Source: Pseudomonas putida
GTDB lineage: Bacteria; Pseudomonadota; Gammaproteobacteria; Pseudomonadales; Pseudomonadaceae
Assembly (NCBI RefSeq): GCF_009883635.2
Contig: NZ_CP026115.2
Location: forward strand, 1,116,001-1,180,000
DNA length: 64,000 bases
Direction: 5' to 3'
Of the stretch, positions 28,381 to 37,620 are shown one piece after another. The notes beneath the pieces were generated by a model. It had not been told where the DNA came from. It did no database searches and saw nothing but the letters and a program-made list of their open reading frames with translations. The stretch's first letter is position 1; each line of letters opens with the position of its first letter. The translations under genes and the position numbers were made by a program.

Positions 28381-28998
28381 TCAATGCTGGTCCTTGCGCA
28401 GGGCAAAGCGGCACACCTGCCCTCCCCTGAGCATGCATTCCTCATGGCTGACTTCAGCGCCGCCAAGCGTGCCAATCAAGGCCAGGTCCAGCTCACACAC
28501 CACCGGATGCGCCTTGGCCAGATGATGGAACACACAGTTGTGCGCCACGATCTGTGGTTCGCCTGAAGAACGGAAGAACACTTCGGCCTCATACCCCGCC
28601 GCATTCATGTGTTCGACGATCCGCCCTTCATCCACCACTTCGGCCTCCAGGCCCGTCGCCAGCTTGCGCCCAAGCTGCCGCATCAGCGCCAGCAACGCCT
28701 CCTGCCCCATCAAGCCTGCCACTTCACCAATCAGCAGGTTGGCCAGCAGCGGATACTGCCGAGGGAACAGTTCGCGGCCATGCTCGGTCAGCTGATGCAG
28801 TTGCTCCGGCCGACGCCCGGTGGGCCGGGTAGCACCGCGCTTGACCAGGCCGTCACGCTCCAGGGCGGCCAGGTGCTGGCGCACCGCCGTGCGGGTGATG
28901 GCCAGGGCCTGCGCCAGTTCGTCGATGCTCATGCCGGCCGGCTGATGCAGCAACGCATGGAGCAGGTCCTGTTGGGTACGGCCAAGGCCTTCGAGCAT
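28381..28998 (-). CDS. HTH regulator with C-terminal four-cysteine (possible Fe-S) cluster
   Basis: A 205-aa protein. Residues 1-75 form a winged helix (SIDELAQALAITRTAVRQHLAALERDGL, then a basic wing TRPTGRRPEQ). The C-terminal third has Cys155, Cys168, Cys188 and Cys196, spaced C-x12-C-x19-C-x7-C, with a histidine right after the first. This resembles the SufR-type layout, where four cysteines hold a 4Fe-4S cluster and control Fe-S assembly genes; here there is no suf operon. Its ATG overlaps the stop of the preceding secreted-protein gene (TGATG), so the two are translationally coupled. Confidence 0.85.
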   Translation of the reverse strand: MLEGLGRTQQDLLHALLHQPAGMSIDELAQALAITRTAVRQHLAALERDGLVKRGATRPTGRRPEQLHQLTEHGRELFPRQYPLLANLLIGEVAGLMGQEALLALMRQLGRKLATGLEAEVVDEGRIVEHMNAAGYEAEVFFRSSGEPQIVAHNCVFHHLAKAHPVVCELDLALIGTLGGAEVSHEECMLRGGQVCRFALRKDQH

Positions 28999-29636
28999 CA
29001 GAACTTGTCCGGAAACTGCTTGACCAGCGCCGCAGTGAGGGCGTCGGACAAGGTCAGGATATGCTCGCGCATCATCGCCCAGGTACGTGCCTCGCCGGCG
29101 TAGTCACCGGCGGCCAGCTGGTCGATCTGCGCCACGTGATGGCCACCGTGGGCGCTGAGCAAGGTCAGCAAGGTCTGCTCCGGCAGGTTCGGGTTGGCCT
29201 TGGCCAGGAAGGCGGCGATGGCCTTGGCATTGCTGCCCAGGTCGTTGACGGCAGCTTGCTGCCCTTTCTTGTCCTTGGCCACGGTGGCATCGCTGTAGTG
29301 CTTGATCGCGCCCCAGTGGCTGGCGAGCAGCTTGAACAATTGGTCGGCGGCGGGTTGGCCGTACAGCGGGGCGATGCTGTTGGCGATTCTGGTGGCATCA
29401 CTGACAACTTCATTGGCCGCGACTGCGGCCTGTTTGGCGTTGCCCGCCTGGTTGGCGACGGCATAGTTGCGAACCCAGAAAATGTGCTCGACCCACAGGT
29501 CGCGCAAGGCCATGCGCGTGGTCATCGCTGCAGATTCGGCGGGTTTGGCGGCGGGGGTTGCGGAGGAGTAGCTTTGGCTCCATGCCGGCTGGGCACACAG
29601 GGCGAGCAGCAACAAGGCGGCAATCTTGATGTTCAT
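28998..29636 (-). CDS. secreted helical protein of unknown function
   Basis: A 212-aa protein starting at ATG 29636 with AGGAGG eight bases upstream. A clear Sec signal (MNIKIAALLLLALCAQPAWSQ) is followed by a mostly helical, Ala-rich domain of about 190 residues. The pattern LRDLWVEHIFWVRNYAV ... LASHWGAIKHYSDA ... LLSAHGGHHVAQIDQL has regularly spaced histidines, which suggests a periplasmic four-helix protein that may bind metal or haem. I do not recognise a named family. It is the first gene of a two-gene operon with the four-cysteine regulator. Confidence 0.8.
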   Translation of the reverse strand: MNIKIAALLLLALCAQPAWSQSYSSATPAAKPAESAAMTTRMALRDLWVEHIFWVRNYAVANQAGNAKQAAVAANEVVSDATRIANSIAPLYGQPAADQLFKLLASHWGAIKHYSDATVAKDKKGQQAAVNDLGSNAKAIAAFLAKANPNLPEQTLLTLLSAHGGHHVAQIDQLAAGDYAGEARTWAMMREHILTLSDALTAALVKQFPDKF

Positions 29637-29748
29637 GACGGCACCCTCCTGGAGGGGATCGACTGACAAGATTAATTTAAGCATCAAAATATGTTTTTAT
29701 TCGGCCGTCGGCGGAATTCCGATCAATGGTTTGCCTATTGAAAACAAC

Positions 29749-29772
29749 AGCCACGGGATGCTTCCCGTGGCT
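29749..29772 (-). terminator. hairpin after the LysR gene
   Basis: agccacggga-tgct-tcccgtggct makes a 10-base-pair stem with a 4-base loop, 22 bases past the stop of the LysR gene. On the minus strand it is followed by gttttc, a weak U-tract. The same stem sequence recurs at the far end of the dioxygenase operon (33552-33574). Confidence 0.75.
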
Positions 29773-29793: not shown

Positions 29794-30663
29794 TCAGGCG
29801 CTGATGGCGTCCAGGCTGCGGATGGGTGTGGGAACCGCACAGAACAGCGGGAACTCCTCTTCGATGATCCACGGTTCTTTCATGACCAGGTAAACATCGA
29901 GAAAGTCGGAGAAACCCGGCCAGATGAACAGGTCATTGGCCTCGGCAACCGCCCGCGACAGCACGCCCACGCCGCCAAAACTCTTGATCATCGAGACGCT
30001 GACGATCTCGCTGCCGGAATGGAACACGGTTGCCCCGTCCAGCATGCCTGGCCGGCGCTCGGCGAAGCGGGTGAAGATCGAATGATACGGGCACTCCGGC
30101 AAAGGCTTGATCACCGCGCAGGGCGCCGAGCGGTCATTGCTGGTTGACGAGGCAACGACCTCGATGCGCAAGCCCTTCAGCGGTACCGAATGGTAGTTCT
30201 CGCCCATGCTGTCGCCCAGCACCACCACCATGTCCGCCTCATCCTTGGCCAGCTTGACCAGGTTGTCGGGCGACTCCGAGCAACTGAAGATCGGATTGTA
30301 GCCGGACAACTTGCTGACCACGGCGCCCATGATCTGCTGGTTGATTTCCATCGACAGTGTGCTGTTCAAGGCAACCCGCAACGGCAGGCGCTGGTTGCGG
30401 CTCTGGCGCAACTGGTTGATCTTCAGCTGCATGCGCTCGGACGAACGCACGATTTCCAGGACATGCGGCAGGATGCCCATGCCCTCCTGGGTCAGCGATA
30501 CCCCTTTGTTGGTCCGGTCGAACAATTTGAAGCCGCAATGATCTTCGAGCTTTTTCAACTGAGCAGCCAAGGCCTGGACCGTGACGTGTACCTGTTCGGC
30601 CGCATCGGTGATCGAGCCCGTGCGGGCTACGGTCACGATGTTTTTAAGCACCTTGATGTCCAT
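29794..30663 (-). CDS. LysR-family regulator of the dioxygenase operon
   Basis: A 289-aa LysR protein. The HTH is GSITDAAEQVHVTVQALAAQLKKLEDHCG, in which VQAL replaces the usual QPAVS/QSALS wording. An effector-binding domain follows. It is divergent from the dioxygenase gene with a 204-base control region that carries two similar inverted repeats. The closest logic is an activator responding to the amino acid handled by the operon. Confidence 0.9.
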   Translation of the reverse strand: MDIKVLKNIVTVARTGSITDAAEQVHVTVQALAAQLKKLEDHCGFKLFDRTNKGVSLTQEGMGILPHVLEIVRSSERMQLKINQLRQSRNQRLPLRVALNSTLSMEINQQIMGAVVSKLSGYNPIFSCSESPDNLVKLAKDEADMVVVLGDSMGENYHSVPLKGLRIEVVASSTSNDRSAPCAVIKPLPECPYHSIFTRFAERRPGMLDGATVFHSGSEIVSVSMIKSFGGVGVLSRAVAEANDLFIWPGFSDFLDVYLVMKEPWIIEEEFPLFCAVPTPIRSLDAISA

Positions 30664-30683
30664 TCACTCTCCCTCCCCGTTCC

Positions 30684-30795
30684 GTTGACGCAGGCCGTCA
30701 ACGAAAGGCATGAGGATATCGCACAACCGCCGGCACTGTCTGCCCGATAACGGTGCACGCCGCCTGGGTAGCAAGCAACGGTTGAGGCACGTCAA
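30684..30795. promoter_or_regulatory. pair of GTTGA/TCAA inverted repeats, candidate LysR operators
   Basis: GTTGACG-CAGGC-CGTCAAC (30684-30702) is a perfect 7+7 inverted repeat just upstream of the lysR start. GTTGAGGCACGTCAA (30781-30795) repeats the half-sites nearer the dioxygenase promoter. Two related sites about 97 bases apart fit the recognition-plus-activation arrangement of LysR proteins. An A/T-rich promoter stretch follows at 30796-30866. Confidence 0.55.
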
Positions 30796-30867
30796 AAAAA
30801 AGTGAAGTTTCGGCGGGCGATTCAACTGTTAGATTTTTGTCAGCTTTTACATAAAAAGAGATTTACC

Positions 30868-31614
30868 ATGCTGACACTGAATAGAAACATCGATACTGCC
30901 CTGCGACAAAACAAGACCGTTAACGTCCTGGGTAGCGATTATGCGTTGAACGGGGGGTTCAACGAGTTTGTCGAGTTTTCCAAAAGTTGGGAAACTATGG
31001 GCGTCGACCGTTATTACGGCCAGGCCGAAAAAGGCACCCGCTATCGCCGTTACAGCGACTTCGACTTCAACCCGGTCACCGGCGAACTGTGCCAACTCAA
31101 TCACCGCGCCTATGAACAATCCGAAGCGCACAACAACTATGTCGGTGGCATGGCACGTCATTTCGATGACATCAGTGCCGATGTGTTCAACTCACCGATT
31201 CTGCGCGCGTTGATTCGCCTGGATTTCGACGTGTACAAGGCGGTATTGCCTGAAGAACTGCATACAGTCACCTGGCAGTGCCAAGTGCACCAGATCCGTA
31301 TCGAAATCAAACCGGGGGCGCAGATCGAAATTACCCCTGAAGGTATTCACTGCGACGGTTACCCGTTCAGCGGCGTGCACTTCTGGGGCCGTCACAACGT
31401 CGAGGGTGCTACCAGCAACATCTACGACAAACAGTCGAATGTAATCGACTCCGGTACCTACCTGAACATTCTCGACACCACTTACTTCCTCGACCGCGAA
31501 CTGCAACACTATGTCACTCCGGCGATCAACCCGAGCCCTTCGGAAATGGGCTATCGGCAGATCATTGCAATTTCCTTCTCTCGACCGGGCAGCGAGCATG
31601 ACATTATCGACTAG
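30868..31614 (+). CDS. 2-oxoglutarate/Fe(II)-dependent amino-acid dioxygenase (IDO-like, PF10014 type)
   Basis: A 248-aa protein of the size and layout of the free-amino-acid hydroxylases such as L-isoleucine 4-hydroxylase. The likely Fe ligands are His161 and Asp163 in GIHCDGYPF and His214 in LQHYVTPA; Arg230 in GYRQIIAISF would bind 2-oxoglutarate. The usual HFWGRHN segment is also present. It should hydroxylate a free aliphatic amino acid with O2, releasing succinate and CO2; the substrate is not readable. The ribosome-binding site is weak (AAGAG). G+C is about 52-53% in two lines counted by hand, against about 65-70% nearby. It overlaps the next gene by 17 bases. Confidence 0.85.
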   Translation: MLTLNRNIDTALRQNKTVNVLGSDYALNGGFNEFVEFSKSWETMGVDRYYGQAEKGTRYRRYSDFDFNPVTGELCQLNHRAYEQSEAHNNYVGGMARHFDDISADVFNSPILRALIRLDFDVYKAVLPEELHTVTWQCQVHQIRIEIKPGAQIEITPEGIHCDGYPFSGVHFWGRHNVEGATSNIYDKQSNVIDSGTYLNILDTTYFLDRELQHYVTPAINPSPSEMGYRQIIAISFSRPGSEHDIID

Positions 31615-32080
31615 TTACATCGGCCCGGTGCCGAAGTTGTTTCCGAGTGAACATATCAATGGCCTGAGCATCAAGAAAGCCACGCCCTTCCATGCCCGCA
31701 AGATCGTCGACTTCTTCCGTCGCTTCGAGGAGACCTCGTTCTGCGACTGGCAGGATGAGGGGCTGCTCAAAGGCTTGCTCGGCTCGGAGCATACCTACTG
31801 CTACATGGCCGAAAACCATACCGGCACCATCGTCGGCGCGGTCGCAGGGGGCTTGATGGGCACACGGGGCACCATCAATCACATGGCAGTGGCGCCGGAC
31901 TATCGGCAGAGCCGGATTGGCACTTCACTGGCCAATTCGATTCTCAGCGATTTCCGCCAGCACGGTATTCGCCGGGTGTTCCTGTTCGTAGAAGATGACA
32001 ACCCCAACGCACTGAGCTTCTGGCAGAAACAAGGCTTCCTGCAAACCCGTGGTGAAATCACCTGCGAGGTCGACCTGTGA
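31598..32080 (+). CDS. GNAT-family N-acetyltransferase
   Basis: A 160-aa GNAT protein. The acetyl-CoA loop is APDYRQSRIGTSLANSIL, followed by the beta-4/alpha-4 end VFLFVEDDNPNALSFWQKQGF. The ATG at 31598 lies inside the end of the dioxygenase gene and its stop overlaps the GTG of azlC, so translation is coupled at both ends. Given the neighbours, a small amino-acid substrate, perhaps the hydroxylated product, is likely; this is inference. Confidence 0.88.
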   Translation: MTLSTSYIGPVPKLFPSEHINGLSIKKATPFHARKIVDFFRRFEETSFCDWQDEGLLKGLLGSEHTYCYMAENHTGTIVGAVAGGLMGTRGTINHMAVAPDYRQSRIGTSLANSILSDFRQHGIRRVFLFVEDDNPNALSFWQKQGFLQTRGEITCEVDL

Positions 32081-32778
32081 CCTCGTCGGTGCTGCTAACC
32101 ACCTCGCGCAAGGAAAGCCTGGTCGATGCCCTGCCGATCGTCACCGGCTACTTCGTGGTCAGCTTCGTGTTCGGTGTCATGTGCATCAATGCCGGCCTGC
32201 CTTTGTGGCTGCCGGCCGCCATGTGCCTGTTCGTCTATGCCGGGGCGGCGCAGTTCGCCGCACTGGCACTGATGACCACCAGCGCGCCGCTGATCACCAT
32301 TGCGTTGTCGACCTTGCTGATCAATTCGCGGCACATGCTGATGGCGATGTACATGTCCAAACGCAGCGCGCAACTGCCGATCAGCAAGCCGCAGAAGTTG
32401 CTGTACGCATTCGGCCTGACCGATGAGTCCTTTGCCTTTCACAGCCAACGCCTGGAGAACGGCAGGCCGACCTCGCCTGGCTATCTGCTGCAGTTCAATA
32501 CCTATTGCCATGCCAGCTGGATCGCCGGCGCGGTGTTTGGCGCGGTGGCATCGGATGCCTTGAACCGGTTTTCCCAGTTCAAGCTGGATTATGCCCTGAC
32601 GGCCATGATGATCTTCGTGCTGATATCGCTGTGCAGCACCTTCACCAAAGCCGTCATCGCCCTGGTAGTGATCGTGACCACCTGCCTGTTGAACATGTTT
32701 GCGCCCTCGCCCTTGAACGTATTCATCGCAACTGCCGTTGGCTGTGGAGCAGGGTTATGCCTGAAAAGAACTACCTGA
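32077..32778 (+). CDS. azlC: AzlC-family branched-chain amino-acid exporter, large subunit
   Basis: A 233-aa membrane protein of the AzlC family: LVDALPIVTGYFVVSFVFGV, GAAQFAALALM, INSRHMLMAMYM and GLTDESFAF are family wording. It has about seven hydrophobic segments. AzlCD pairs export branched-chain or related amino acids and analogues such as azaleucine. The start is GTG within the GNAT stop (GTGA), and its 3' end overlaps azlD by 22 bases. Confidence 0.93.
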   Translation: MTSSVLLTTSRKESLVDALPIVTGYFVVSFVFGVMCINAGLPLWLPAAMCLFVYAGAAQFAALALMTTSAPLITIALSTLLINSRHMLMAMYMSKRSAQLPISKPQKLLYAFGLTDESFAFHSQRLENGRPTSPGYLLQFNTYCHASWIAGAVFGAVASDALNRFSQFKLDYALTAMMIFVLISLCSTFTKAVIALVVIVTTCLLNMFAPSPLNVFIATAVGCGAGLCLKRTT

Positions 32779-33077
32779 TCGCAGCGGTGATGCTGATGGC
32801 CGCCATCACCTACCTGACCCGCGCGACGCCGTTTCTGCTGAAGATGGAGAAGTCCCCCAAGTGGTTCAATGACGTCATTGAATACCTGCCGGTGGCAATC
32901 ATCGCCAGCATCACCGTACCCGCCCTGCTGGTGGCCAAGGACGGCTCGCTGCTGGGCCTGAATGCCGACCTGCTGGCAGCGATTCCGGTGGTCATTGTCG
33001 CGTACTGGTCGCGCAGCCTGATCTACAGCGTGTGCGCCGGTGTCGCCGGGCACGTGGCGATCACGCTGCTGGCTTGA
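32757..33077 (+). CDS. azlD: AzlD-family exporter small subunit
   Basis: A 106-aa protein with three or four hydrophobic segments and the AzlD pattern ITYLTRATPFLL, YLPVAIIASITVPALL. It partners AzlC in the inner membrane. The ATG lies 22 bases inside azlC, the common azlC-azlD arrangement. Confidence 0.93.
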   Translation: MPEKNYLIAAVMLMAAITYLTRATPFLLKMEKSPKWFNDVIEYLPVAIIASITVPALLVAKDGSLLGLNADLLAAIPVVIVAYWSRSLIYSVCAGVAGHVAITLLA

Positions 33078-33103
33078 GGCCCGGATCTGAAAAGGAAACC
33101 GCT

Positions 33104-33547
33104 ATGAGCCTTGCCCGCCGGAAAGTCACCCTGACCAACCTGAGTGAGTTTTCCCGCCTGATGCCCCAGGTTCCACGTGACCGGGTGATCGAAGAAATGG
33201 CTGACCTGTCACTGGAATGCTCGCTGGCCTATGCCTTGAGCAAGACGTTTCTGCGCGATGGCTGGATTGCCGAGTATCGCCATCTGCATGCGGCTGCACA
33301 CTTGAGCCCGGGCAACGACCTGCTGCTCTTCGCCACCTCGGGAAGCTTGAAGCTGGAAATGCCCGATGGCTCGGAACTGCACATCATGCACGGCGATCAG
33401 GTGGTGCTCAGGGCTGCCACCGAAGCGAAAGTGTTCCCCGTCAGTGACGCAGGTGACGTGAGTTTCCTGGCGCTGGCCGTGGACCTCGACCTGACCGAGG
33501 TGCTGCAGGAGCTTGCCATCGACAGCCCCTTGCCGAAACCGCAATAA
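33104..33547 (+). CDS. small cupin-like protein
   Basis: A 147-aa protein behind AAAGGA. The middle (HLSPGNDLLLFATSGSLKLEMPDGSELHIMHGDQVVLRA) has the double-stranded beta-helix rhythm of cupins, but the canonical metal histidines of motif 1 are not clear. Last gene of the dioxygenase operon, 26 bases after azlD. It may be a binding or sensory accessory; no specific family recognised. Confidence 0.75.
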   Translation: MSLARRKVTLTNLSEFSRLMPQVPRDRVIEEMADLSLECSLAYALSKTFLRDGWIAEYRHLHAAAHLSPGNDLLLFATSGSLKLEMPDGSELHIMHGDQVVLRAATEAKVFPVSDAGDVSFLALAVDLDLTEVLQELAIDSPLPKPQ

Positions 33548-33551
33548 AAAA

Positions 33552-33574
33552 AGCCACGGGGATCACCCGTGGCT
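33552..33574. terminator. bidirectional terminator between cupin and mqo genes
   Basis: agccacggg-gatca-cccgtggct forms a 9-base-pair stem. On the plus strand tctttct follows; on the minus strand a run of seven T (complement of aaaaaaa at 33545-33551) follows. It serves both the dioxygenase operon and the convergent mqo gene. Confidence 0.88.
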
Positions 33575-33596: not shown

Positions 33597-35234
33597 TTAC
33601 AGCGCCATGTCGTTCTCTGGCTTGCTTTCAACCGGCTTGCTCGGCGCCACAGTGGTGCCGACGCTGTCGTCGATCACCGGTGGCTTCTCCAGCTGCAGCA
33701 CTTCAGCGGTGTAGTTCCACTCTTTCTGGGTGGCCGCCGCCGAGTCGTTCAGCTTGGTACCGTAGCTCGGTACGATTTCCTTGATCTTGGCCTGCCACTC
33801 AGGGGTAGCGACCTTTTCCTTGAACACGGTTTCCAGCACGTTCAGCATGATCGGCGCGGCGGTCGAAGCACCTGGCGAGGCGCCCAGCAGGCCGGCGATG
33901 GTGCGGTCCTGGGAAGCCACCACTTCGGTGCCCAGTTTCAGCACGCCGCCCTTCTCTTCGTCACGCTTGATGATCTGCACGCGCTGACCAGCCTGCCACA
34001 GTTTCCAGTCTTCCTTCTTGGCGTTCGGGAAGTAGGTGCGCAGGGCTTCGAAGCGATCGTCATCCGACAGCATCAGCTGGCCGGCGAGGTACTCGACCAG
34101 CGGGTACTGGTCGATACCGACCTTGGTCATCGGCCACACGTTGTGGGTGGTGGTGCTGCTCAGCAGGTCCAGGTACGAACCGTTCTTCAGGAACTTGGTC
34201 GAGAAGGTGGCGAATGGGCCGAACAGGATCACGCGCTTGCCGTCCAGCACGCGGGTGTCCAGGTGCGGTACCGACATGGGTGGCGCGCCGGTCGAGGCGA
34301 TGCCGTAGGCCTTGGCCATGTGCTGCATGGCAATGGTCGGGTTTTCGGTTACCAGGAACGAACCGCCCACCGGGAAGCCTGCATATTCCTTGGCTTCAGG
34401 AATGCCCGACTTCTGCAGCAGCTTCAGCGCGCCGCCGCCGGCACCGATGAACAGGAACTTGGCGTCGGTGGCCGATTCGGTACCGTCCTTGAGGTTCTTG
34501 TACTCGACGTGCCAGGAGCCGTCTTTGTTGCGGGTGATGTCCTGCACTTCGCTGGACAGCTTCAGGTCGAAGCCTTTCTGGGTCTGCAGGTGGCCAACGA
34601 ACTGGCGGGTGATTTCGCCGAAGTTGACGTCGGTGCCGATGGGCGTCCAGGTGACCGCCAGCTTCTGGTTCGGGTCACGGCCTTCCATCATCAGCGGGAC
34701 CCACTTGGCGATCTGCGCGTGGTCCTCGGAGTACTGCATCGGGCGGAACAGCGGGCTGGCCTGCAGCGCGTCGTAACGCTTCTTGAGGAACTTGATGTTG
34801 TCATCGCCCCACACGAAGCTCATGTGCGGGGTGGTGTTGATGAACGAGTGCGGGTTCTTCAGCACGCCCTGGCGAACCTGCCACGACCAGAACTGGCGGG
34901 AGATCTGGAAGGCTTCGTTGATTTCGATGGCCTTGGAGATGTTGACCTTGCCGTCTTTGTCTTCCGGGGTGTAGTTCAGCTCGGCCAGCGCGGAGTGGCC
35001 GGTACCGGCGTTGTTCCAGCCGTTGGAGCTTTCTTCGGCGACGCCGTCCAGGCGCTCGACCATTTCCATCGACCAGCTTGGCTCCAGCTCGTGCAACCAC
35101 ACGGCCAGGGTGGAGCTCATGATGCCGCCGCCGACCAGCAGCACATCGACTTTCTTGGTTTCTGCGGCGTGCGCTTGCATGAAGCTCGCAGCGACAGCCA
35201 GACCCAGCAAGGTCTTGCCAGCTTTCTTGAACAT
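33597..35234 (-). CDS. mqo: malate:quinone oxidoreductase
   Basis: A 545-aa FAD enzyme that oxidises malate to oxaloacetate and reduces quinone. The dinucleotide motif [19 protein letters not shown] begins near residue 29. Other family segments are [34 protein letters not shown] and [16 protein letters not shown]. Ahead of the flavin domain is a signal-like N-terminus ([17 protein letters not shown]), making it longer than the usual 490-500-residue cytoplasmic forms, with a C-terminal Pro-rich tail. P. putida carries several mqo paralogues; this is one of the signal-bearing type. Its role is the TCA-cycle link to respiration. Confidence 0.95.
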
Positions 35235-35639
35235 TGATCAATTCCAGTCAGTAGAACGGAGGGTGGGCCTGTGGCTGACCCAAAATATTCCTTGTTCTTC
35301 AGCGCAGGCTTGTTGTTGATAATTGTTCAGCAGCCAGAGAACCAGATAACGCCCCAGGCTTTTGTCGAATTGACCGACAAGGCTGAATCGTTTCGCTGAT
35401 TGTAACCGAAATGCCAGCACATACAAATTGCACAGCAATAGGCAAGACGACAGGTTGTCTCATGCTGGCCAAACGCTGATGGAAGCCATAGCAGCGCGAA
35501 GAGGCCCGTGCAGGCAAACACCAATGCCCATTCAAAAAAGCGATCACCCGATCGGAATTATTCGCCTTACAGCCCCACCCCGCCCCTTTATCCTGCGGCC
35601 AAGACCCCGCTCAAACACCACAATAAAGGGCCGCCCCGC
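35235..35639. other. intergenic control region between mqo and the racemase-family gene
   Basis: These 405 bases separate two divergent genes. I see an inverted repeat TTGTCG-N7-CGACAA (35362-35380) and a truncated REP piece (cgcgaagaggcccgtgcagg, about 35492-35512). The stretch is more A/T-rich than the flanking genes, so promoters for both genes are expected. No convincing small ORF. Confidence 0.6.
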
Positions 35640-36692
35640 ATGTCATTCAAACGTACCATCCACGCCGTAGACACCCACGCCGGCACGCCCATGCGCGTGA
35701 TCACCGGTGGCATCCCGCATATCCCCGGCGACAGCGTGCACGCCAGGATGAAATGGCTGGAAGCCAACGACGATCAGCTGCGCAAGCTGATGCTGCGCGA
35801 ACCGCGCGGCTACCCGGCCCACTGCTGCAATATCATCGTCCCGCCCAGCCACCCCGAAGCCGACGCCGGCTACATCATCATGGAGCAGATCGAGTACCCG
35901 GTGATGTCCGGCGGCAATACCATCTCGGTAGTCACCGTGCTGCTGGAAATGGGTATGTTGCCGATGCGCGAGCCGCTCACCGAGCTGGTACTGGAAGCGC
36001 CGGCCGGGCTGATCCGCATCCAGGCGCAATGCCAAGGTGGCAAGGTCAAGGCGGTCACCTTCCAGAACGTGCCGGCGTTCGCTGCGCATATCGACGCCGA
36101 AATCGACGTGCCGCACCTGGGCAAGGTACGCGTGGACGTGGGCTGGGGCGGCATGTTCTACGTAATTGCCGACGTGCGCCAGTTCAAGGGCTTGCAACTG
36201 ATCCCCGAGCACGGCGGCGAGATCGCCCGGGTATCGTCGATGATCCGCCAGGCCGCCATCGAGCAGTTGCCGGTTGTCCACCCTGACTACCCCGGCATTG
36301 GCATCACCATTTCCCAGCTGTCCGGCCCCAGCGAAGACCCCAACGCCGACTGGAAGAATGCCGTTACCATGGCCAGCGGCGCGTTTTCCTGGGACGACCC
36401 GAGCACCTGGACGGGGGCCCTGGACCGCTGCCCCTGCGGCACCGGCACCTCGGCGAAAATGGCCACGCTGCACGCCAAGAGCGAGCTGCCGCTGCACCGC
36501 GACTTCCGCCACCAGGGGCTACTGGGCAATGTCTACACCGGCCGCCTGATCGATGAAACCACCATTGGCGGCAAACCGGCCGTGGTCCCGACCATCACCG
36601 GCAAGAGCTGGATCTACGGCCTGAACACCTTCGTCCTCGACCACGACGACCCGTTCCCGGAAGGCTTCACCATCGGCGACATCTGGGCCTGA
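35640..36692 (+). CDS. proline racemase-family hydroxyproline epimerase-like enzyme (Ser/Cys type)
   Basis: A 350-aa PF05544 protein. The first catalytic position, Cys in racemases, is Ser90 here (VMSGGNT instead of MCGHGT). The second is kept as Cys266 in [12 protein letters not shown]. In this superfamily Cys/Cys pairs epimerise or racemise, Cys/Thr pairs dehydrate trans-3-hydroxyproline, and Ser/Cys pairs have been linked to hydroxyproline epimerases of mixed specificity. It is therefore a hydroxyproline-type enzyme rather than a proline racemase, but the reaction is uncertain. I chose the ATG at 35640. A LysR gene follows 58 bases later. Confidence 0.85.
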   Translation: MSFKRTIHAVDTHAGTPMRVITGGIPHIPGDSVHARMKWLEANDDQLRKLMLREPRGYPAHCCNIIVPPSHPEADAGYIIMEQIEYPVMSGGNTISVVTVLLEMGMLPMREPLTELVLEAPAGLIRIQAQCQGGKVKAVTFQNVPAFAAHIDAEIDVPHLGKVRVDVGWGGMFYVIADVRQFKGLQLIPEHGGEIARVSSMIRQAAIEQLPVVHPDYPGIGITISQLSGPSEDPNADWKNAVTMASGAFSWDDPSTWTGALDRCPCGTGTSAKMATLHAKSELPLHRDFRHQGLLGNVYTGRLIDETTIGGKPAVVPTITGKSWIYGLNTFVLDHDDPFPEGFTIGDIWA

Positions 36693-36750: not shown

Positions 36751-37620
36751 ATGAACATCGAGCACCTGCGGGCCTTCATCGAAGTGGCCGCCAGCGGCAG
36801 CTTCCACAAGGCTGCCGAGCGCCTGCACATCACCCAGTCTTCGGTCAGCGCACGGATCAAGGCCCTCGAAGAGCGCCTCAACCGCCCGCTGTTCAGCCGC
36901 AGTCGCCACGGCGTCACCCTGACCTCCGGCGGCAACCTGTTCTACCGCCATGCGGTGTCGGTGATCAGTGCCTGGGAGCGTGCCCAGCAGGACGTGGCAT
37001 TGCCCACCGACATGCGCAGCACGGTCAGCCTGGGCCTGCCAATGAACCACTGGGGCAGTATCACTGCCGACTGGGTAGAGTGGATGGAGCAGCACCAGCC
37101 GCGAGTCGCCACCCAGGTGCAATCGGACTATTCGATCCTGCTGATGAACGAACTGCGCGAAGGGTTGCTGGACCTGGCGATCCTCTATGAGCCGCACCAC
37201 TGGCCCGACGTGATCCTCGAACCGTTTCTCGAAGAACCGCTGCAACTGGTATCGACCCAGGCCGATACCGTGTTCGCAGGGCACGGCGAAGGTTACGTAT
37301 ACATCAGCTGGGGCCGCTCGTTCAGCGAGCAGCACAACGACGCCTTCCCCGGCACCCGGCGCCATCGGCTTTCGATTACCCAGGAAACCATCGCCCTGGA
37401 GTACATCCTCAAGCACGGCGGTTCGGCGTATTTCTCGCAGTTCATGGTCAAAGAGCATTTGGCCGACGGGCGCCTGCACACCGTGGCCGGTGCGCCGGAG
37501 CTGAGCGTGCGCACCTACCTTGCGTTTTCCACCTTGCGCGAGCGCTCGCCAGAAACGTTGAAGGCTGTCGAGGGGTTGCAATCGATCCCCTTCTACACCC
37601 AGGGCAAAAGCTTCAGCTAA
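36751..37620 (+). CDS. LysR-family transcriptional regulator
   Basis: A 289-aa LysR protein: HTH GSFHKAAERLHITQSSVSARIKALEERLN, then a substrate-binding-like domain. It follows the Ser/Cys epimerase-like gene on the same strand and probably regulates it. A strong terminator follows. Confidence 0.92.
   Translation: MNIEHLRAFIEVAASGSFHKAAERLHITQSSVSARIKALEERLNRPLFSRSRHGVTLTSGGNLFYRHAVSVISAWERAQQDVALPTDMRSTVSLGLPMNHWGSITADWVEWMEQHQPRVATQVQSDYSILLMNELREGLLDLAILYEPHHWPDVILEPFLEEPLQLVSTQADTVFAGHGEGYVYISWGRSFSEQHNDAFPGTRRHRLSITQETIALEYILKHGGSAYFSQFMVKEHLADGRLHTVAGAPELSVRTYLAFSTLRERSPETLKAVEGLQSIPFYTQGKSFS

Follow-up and report, generated by a model that had tools for sequence, protein, structure and literature searches.

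What would an amino-acid dioxygenase, an acyltransferase and an amino-acid exporter do together in one bacterial operon? We address this question for a block of genes at 29794..33547 of a 64,000-nucleotide stretch of Pseudomonas putida DNA (the window; all coordinates are window positions), which covers positions 1,116,001-1,180,000 of NZ_CP026115.2 (GCF_009883635.2; a genome of 6.19 Mb in one contig). The nearest named relatives of this genome are P. putida KH-21-134, P. vlassakiae, P. parafulva and P. fulva, which we take to be members of the P. putida group. Five plus-strand genes encode a PF10014 Fe(II)/2-oxoglutarate dioxygenase (30868..31614; 248 amino acids, ATG start, Pfam E-value 6e-46), a GNAT-family N-acyltransferase (31598..32080; 160 amino acids, ATG start, Pfam Acetyltransf_1, PF00583), AzlC, the large subunit of a bipartite amino-acid exporter (32077..32778; GTG start, E-value 1e-37), AzlD, the small subunit (32757..33077; ATG start, E-value 1e-20), and a cupin-like accessory protein (33104..33547; ATG start). 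The first four genes overlap by 17, 4 and 22 bases in turn, the cupin-like gene starts 26 bases past AzlD, and a LysR-type regulator (29794..30663, minus strand; Pfam HTH_1) diverges from the operon. A first-pass annotation of the sequence had described this layout, and the coordinates, starts and stops confirm it. Its four families also hold: PF10014, GNAT (PF00583), AzlC and AzlD, like HTH_1, all score above the Pfam curated cut-offs.

Is the grouping more than a local accident? A dioxygenase orthologue (E-value 1e-40 or better) is present in 85 of 398 Pseudomonas genomes, and we examined one fetched locus for each of them. In all 85 the dioxygenase, GNAT, AzlC and AzlD genes are contiguous, in the same order, on one strand and within 2.6 kb. 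The orthologues form two identity classes, nine at 86-100% (the P. putida type) and 76 at 62-65% (the second type). The partner genes follow the dioxygenase closely. An AzlC orthologue (E-value 1e-50 or better) occurs in 45 of 199 Pseudomonas genomes, every one of them dioxygenase-positive. The GNAT profile matches 30 of 79; the 22 matches at 2e-69 or better are exactly the 22 dioxygenase-positive genomes, and the other eight are weak (7e-20 to 1e-18), with no dioxygenase in any of the eight. Modules of the second type sit elsewhere, with a common upstream neighbour in 10 of 17 long loci (an OprD porin in the one locus scanned) and different flanks in L073 and L081. Because the modules occupy different sites in Pseudomonas and come with two LysR layouts, described below, the set appears to have been kept through rearrangement. 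We conclude that dioxygenase-GNAT-AzlC-AzlD is a real unit and not a chance grouping. The first-pass annotation had proposed this joint operon and called for a genome-neighbourhood search, which is strongly positive (all of the Pseudomonas modules and two Streptomyces); the possibility that the genes are together by chance in this strain fails.

Beyond Pseudomonas, PF10014 matches (E-value 1e-10 or better) are found in 57 of 199 Streptomyces genomes. In two of these, S. actinomycinicus (locus L014) and genome G950, the dioxygenase is followed by GNAT, AzlC and AzlD and is 42% identical to that of the window. The GNAT subfamily occurs in 2 of 197 Streptomyces genomes, the same two that carry the module dioxygenase. 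At 28 distant PF10014 loci, 19 representing part of the Streptomyces matches and nine from elsewhere, there is no match to GNAT, AzlC or AzlD over about 1.5 kb (one locus being shorter), and three of them followed over 9-15 kb still show none. A phylum-wide sample gives PF10014 in 3 of 398 genomes, two of which are the genome of the window and that of another Pseudomonas with the module, and a class-wide sample gives 4 of 369, one being the window's own; the four distant loci of these samples have no partner-gene match. Plasmids contribute 43 PF10014 records, all below 60% identity. In G950 (L166 369-4711), the dioxygenase comes after genes for a major facilitator superfamily (MFS) exporter and a DinB_2 protein on its own strand, and an L-amino-acid ligase gene (LAL_C2 and ATP-grasp; PDB relatives include BacD) diverges from these. 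The ligase and the MFS exporter, as neighbours of the module, recall by analogy the loci for bacilysin-type antimetabolite dipeptides. A SpoIIE-type phosphatase gene also lies beside both Streptomyces modules (L014 6396-7598; L166 6719-7936), upstream in one and downstream in the other.

The dioxygenase appears catalytically intact. The residues that had been named as catalytic, His161, Asp163, His214 and Arg230, are invariant across 43 aligned homologues, and the protein has the features that define PF10014: a score above the Pfam cut-off, the HxD...H iron triad with the 2-oxoglutarate arginine, and a double-stranded beta-helix fold. An AlphaFold2 model (mean pLDDT 95), which served for fold comparison only, has HrmJ of the hormaomycin pathway as its best Foldseek match (9dqp, E-value 6e-21). 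HrmJ is also the nearest of six solved relatives by sequence (E-value 3e-28); the weakest is the L-isoleucine 4-dioxygenase IDO (9e-6). Identity to the HrmJ chains, the best match overall, is 22-27%, and 22-28% when BelL of the belactosin pathway, which has the same fold, is included. In a narrow sense, then, the label "IDO-like" given to the enzyme is not supported, the HrmJ proteins being nearer. HrmJ and BelL, which belong to peptide clusters, act on a nitro amino acid by forming a cyclopropane ring, and some PF10014 relatives close rings rather than hydroxylate. No peptide cluster like theirs was noticed here, in the course of an analysis that made no systematic search for one. PF10014 members hydroxylate free isoleucine, leucine, methionine, threonine and lysine (PMC3684760, PMC9951290, PMC13336071). 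At the IDO pocket positions reported in PMC10180240 (Tyr143, Ser153, Pro155, Asn182, Arg227), only the proline and the arginine are kept in the window protein. The changes, which include a further position, are Tyr143 to Ile145, Ser153 to Ile155, Asn182 to Ser183 and Phe206 to Leu208; this mapping was made by hand from the aligned IDO row, reached through one plasmid PF10014 record as a bridge, and from the spacing of the iron ligands, with the window letters checked. One module-bearing Pseudomonas (locus L037, G036:C1:9779-10420) has in addition a second, distant PF10014 gene with one in-frame TGA.

Both partners are assigned at the family level. The GNAT scores 62.4 bits against a cut-off of 20.7 (in a scan of a longer frame starting at 31511), and its alignment has 25 invariant columns in eight sequences from two phyla. 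AzlC scores 129.7 bits against 32.1 and AzlD 73.7 against 23.7, and the genes are adjacent, which together place the pair among AzlCD exporters; AzlC falls below the cut-off of the azaleucine-resistance equivalog TIGR00346 (82.8 against 332.35 bits). Like AzlCD, BrnFE and YgaZH, a grouping drawn partly from general knowledge, the pair consists of AzlC and AzlD domains in adjacent, overlapping genes; unlike them, it is tied to a dioxygenase and a GNAT. BrnFE itself belongs to the AzlCD kind of exporter. The Bacillus subtilis AzlCD is described as a promiscuous system that removes free, often toxic amino acids: it exports 4-azaleucine, histidine and asparagine and contributes to the export of 2,3-diaminopropionate (PMC11005379).

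How does the module compare with known systems? In the IDO operon of Bacillus thuringiensis, L-isoleucine 4-dioxygenase is encoded with AMKP reductase and the exporter RhtA. The likeness lies in a PF10014 dioxygenase, predicted here to act on a free amino acid, that is encoded with an amino-acid exporter. The difference is that a GNAT and AzlCD take the place of AMKP reductase and RhtA, neither of which is among the window genes at 29794-33547, and that the kinship of the two dioxygenases is distant, with differences in the reported pocket residues. The Hil operon of Pantoea, Rahnella, the P. syringae group and Xenorhabdus consists of HilR, HilP, HilA, HilB and HilC, sometimes with the ligase HilD and the MFS exporter HilE. 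It shares with our module a LysR regulator and a PF10014 dioxygenase, and in G950 a ligase and an MFS exporter lie close to the module as well; HilA (PF13640), HilP and HilC, however, are absent from the window block, leaving the five-gene Hil core incomplete, and the dioxygenase reaches 22 bits on the HilB equivalog NF042428, whose cut-off is 350. A third relative, the lysine 4-hydroxylase GlbB (also PF10014), acts on free lysine and less well on leucine and methionine (PMC9951290); unlike the window enzyme, it sits in a peptide-synthetase cluster. We found no description of a dioxygenase-GNAT-AzlCD set among the matches listed from the open literature, a scope outside which most subscription journals fall. 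The component families are known, and the combination is new as far as we found, kin to the amino-acid operons that pair a dioxygenase with an exporter.

From the composition, order and co-occurrence of the genes, the intact iron and 2-oxoglutarate site and the exporter and acyltransferase families, all of which are directly supported, we infer a substrate, a reaction, a target of acetylation, a mode of regulation and an ecological role. The reading that we favour, at somewhat less than even confidence, is a self-contained and transferable module for making and secreting a free amino acid in oxidised form, with the GNAT for self-protection and LysR in control. The dioxygenase, with Fe(II), O2 and 2-oxoglutarate, would act on a free amino acid and oxidise its side chain, most likely by hydroxylation and possibly by ring closure. 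AzlCD would pump the product out, the GNAT would N-acetylate what is left inside and so keep it from tRNA charging and from amino-acid enzymes, and LysR would control the unit. The product would most likely be an antimetabolite or another bioactive amino acid aimed at neighbours. Two gene groups are described for the IDO, Hil and Bac operons by the authors of the Hil study, who read the IDO and Hil operons, with their common enzyme family and their exporters, as antimicrobial (PMC3684760). By analogy with those two groups, an enzyme, an exporter and an acetyltransferase could form a complete production and self-protection set.

Several points weigh against this proposal. It is not obvious that an exporter of free amino acids would carry an N-acetylated product, and for this reason the place of the GNAT in the pathway is a guess. 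The usual CoA motif of the family is R/Q-x-x-G-x-G/A; L083 (R-S-Q-G-V-G) and L014 (R-R-S-G-L-A) are canonical, whereas the window GNAT (R-Q-S-R-I-G) has an arginine at the first glycine. A further ten GNAT clusters in the protein database are labelled Streptomyces, and some of them may lack the dioxygenase. The ligase is a neighbour in only one of the two Streptomyces, with none among the eight genes scanned in L014. Biosynthetic partners such as peptide synthetases, or dedicated genes for a precursor, were not noticed in the flanks, which were not systematically searched. Finally, a cell that detoxifies an amino acid from outside would require largely the same genes.

This last possibility is the main rival, and we consider it rather unlikely. 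Here LysR would sense a toxic amino acid of plant, insect or microbial source, the dioxygenase and the GNAT would inactivate it and AzlCD would expel it. GNATs do inactivate toxic amino acids, and the GNAT profile matches include 2bl1 (E-value 5e-6), whose annotation is putative phosphinothricin acetyltransferase. The disposal of harmful amino acids such as 4-azaleucine by AzlCD (PMC11005379) is in keeping with such a role, as is the apparent lack of precursor genes, within the limit just given. However, three separate defences against one compound, strictly together across phyla, exceed what export or acetylation by itself would call for. The operon opens with the dioxygenase, which in the Pseudomonas sampled is never missing beside a close AzlC or GNAT orthologue, and the known operons of PF10014 amino-acid hydroxylases are read as biosynthetic (PMC3684760). 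It is also conceivable, at a low probability, that the GNAT is itself biosynthetic, with an oxidised and N-acylated amino acid as the end product, which would be a stored solute or leave the cell by another route. Conservation of the GNAT is as strict as that of the dioxygenase, and the invariant GNAT columns in two phyla are as expected for a dedicated small-molecule enzyme; AzlCD, however, is known for free amino acids (PMC11005379), and no export route for an N-acyl amino acid is visible in the module.

Equally doubtful is a Bacillus-like pathway to 4-hydroxyisoleucine or 4-hydroxyleucine in which AzlCD replaces RhtA. The dioxygenase and IDO do have a Pfam family in common, and two-subunit exporters such as BrnFE carry branched-chain amino acids and methionine out of the cell (PMC8709942). 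The weak match to IDO and the differing pocket residues, both given above, speak against it; with the promiscuity of the B. subtilis AzlCD (PMC11005379), the differences from the IDO pocket also undercut the earlier proposal that the substrate is probably a branched-chain amino acid. Least probable of all, and quite a long shot, is a compact pathway to a new class of oxidised, N-acylated amino acids that cyclise to alpha-amino-gamma-lactones. Hydroxylation at C4 would lead to lactonisation and the GNAT would acylate the amine, giving short signals or inhibitors like N-acyl homoserine lactones without LuxI. C4-hydroxy amino acids have been proposed as precursors of such analogues, with a ligase and not a GNAT as the joining enzyme (PMC3684760). 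A ring-forming pathway to a cyclopropane or aziridine amino acid may be an equally possible variant of the lactone route.

What might control the module? A LysR gene goes with all 85 Pseudomonas modules, divergent and upstream in all nine of the P. putida type, convergent and downstream in all 76 of the second type (complete in 53, and in 23 visible only as a tail where a short locus ends). Where compared, the two types have LysR proteins that share 32-39% identity over about 270-290 residues. A convergent LysR-family gene also lies downstream in L014, 27% alike to the window LysR over 79 residues only; none was detected in the G950 stretch. The divergent control region of the window is the 204-base gap between the LysR and dioxygenase genes (30664..30867). 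Conserved in it is a near-palindrome, TTGAGGCACGTCAA (30782-30795), 72 bases before the dioxygenase start, which has the shape TTGAGG-N2-CCTCAA or similar across 11 aligned P. putida-type loci. Three of ten named loci (L006, L011, L012) have the perfect palindrome, and the window copy departs from it by one mismatch; the shape makes it a candidate LysR site. A box common to both Pseudomonas types was considered and rejected, the perfect form being found upstream in none of the 76 second-type genomes. As a side observation, a gene pair that adjoins the second-type LysR (L072 10357-11477 and equivalents) resembles a toxin-antitoxin system of the Xre/RES type.

The cupin-like protein has no Pfam family at the cut-off (best match Cupin_3, E-value 0.33). 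Its gene is present in all ten named P. putida-type loci and is visible in three of the nine P. putida-type loci of the survey, the other six ending before its position. There is no match in the 76 second-type loci, 23 of which are cut short, or in the Streptomyces module loci. The gene was originally counted with the others; its membership in the conserved set is not supported, and it belongs, as far as seen, to the P. putida type only.

We also ask where the module came from. The low G+C content of the dioxygenase gene had been taken as a hint of transfer. The counted composition is right, at 53.0% (2.4th percentile of 248 sampled genes). As evidence of transfer it is equivocal and we set that argument aside: third positions are ordinary (67.1%, 26th percentile), so the low value is not a third-position effect, and the block as a whole has 57.9% (10th percentile of 340 windows). 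The stretch from dioxygenase to AzlD has a G+C content 3-8 points below that of its remaining locus in eight of ten named P. putida-type loci and about equal to it in L011 and L012 (L013 was read at the common coordinates, its module starting 348 bases earlier); in three second-type loci and the Streptomyces locus the module matches its surroundings. A maximum-likelihood tree of 43 proteins offers better evidence. In it the window dioxygenase joins those of Pantoea multigeneris and Entomobacter blattae and P0012, with 100/100 support, and stands separate from the second Pseudomonas type. Support for the clade of the other Pseudomonas dioxygenases is weak (83/45), and a long-branch warning applies to the outermost rows. 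The tree supports transfer of the dioxygenase between genera, and its simplest reading would be at least two entries into Pseudomonas.

The site itself has some peculiarities. The gene mqo (33597-35234), convergent with the operon, adjoins the module in all ten named P. putida-type loci, on the opposite side in L011 and L012, which suggests a rearrangement or an insertion-prone spot. A functional link between the module and mqo was not accepted, given this change of side. An empty-site check in G015, G021 and G025, which have the neighbour at 28998-29639 and no dioxygenase, gave no clean junction to mqo, and hence no insertion boundary is defined. Hairpins that are likely terminators bound the block. 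One follows the LysR gene (29749..29772, minus strand; -27.8 kcal/mol, z -4.0) and is also listed by a consensus terminator scan, which gave five sites against 3.8 expected in shuffles. The other (33552..33574), between the operon and mqo, folds at -19.1 kcal/mol on the plus strand (z -4.3) and -24.3 kcal/mol on the minus strand (z -3.8), and is absent from the list of the scan. Both have the common stem GCCACGGG/CCCGTGGC, an exact pattern not found in a 400-kb sample of the same genome. Both copies are present in L004 and L013, and one copy adjoins mqo in L012. Just past mqo lie a gene of the proline racemase/hydroxyproline epimerase/trans-3-hydroxyproline dehydratase family (35637-36692) and another LysR gene (36751-37620); among the ten named loci a close copy (97%) is found in L013 only.

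The strict gene linkage across two phyla makes the module a good candidate for activity screening. If our favoured reading is true, it would be a small, complete and widely carried pathway to a modified free amino acid that has escaped description in well-studied bacteria of soil and plants. It would also provide a new amino-acid oxygenase of biocatalytic use, with a matched self-protection acetyltransferase and exporter, and a compound that can be tested directly.

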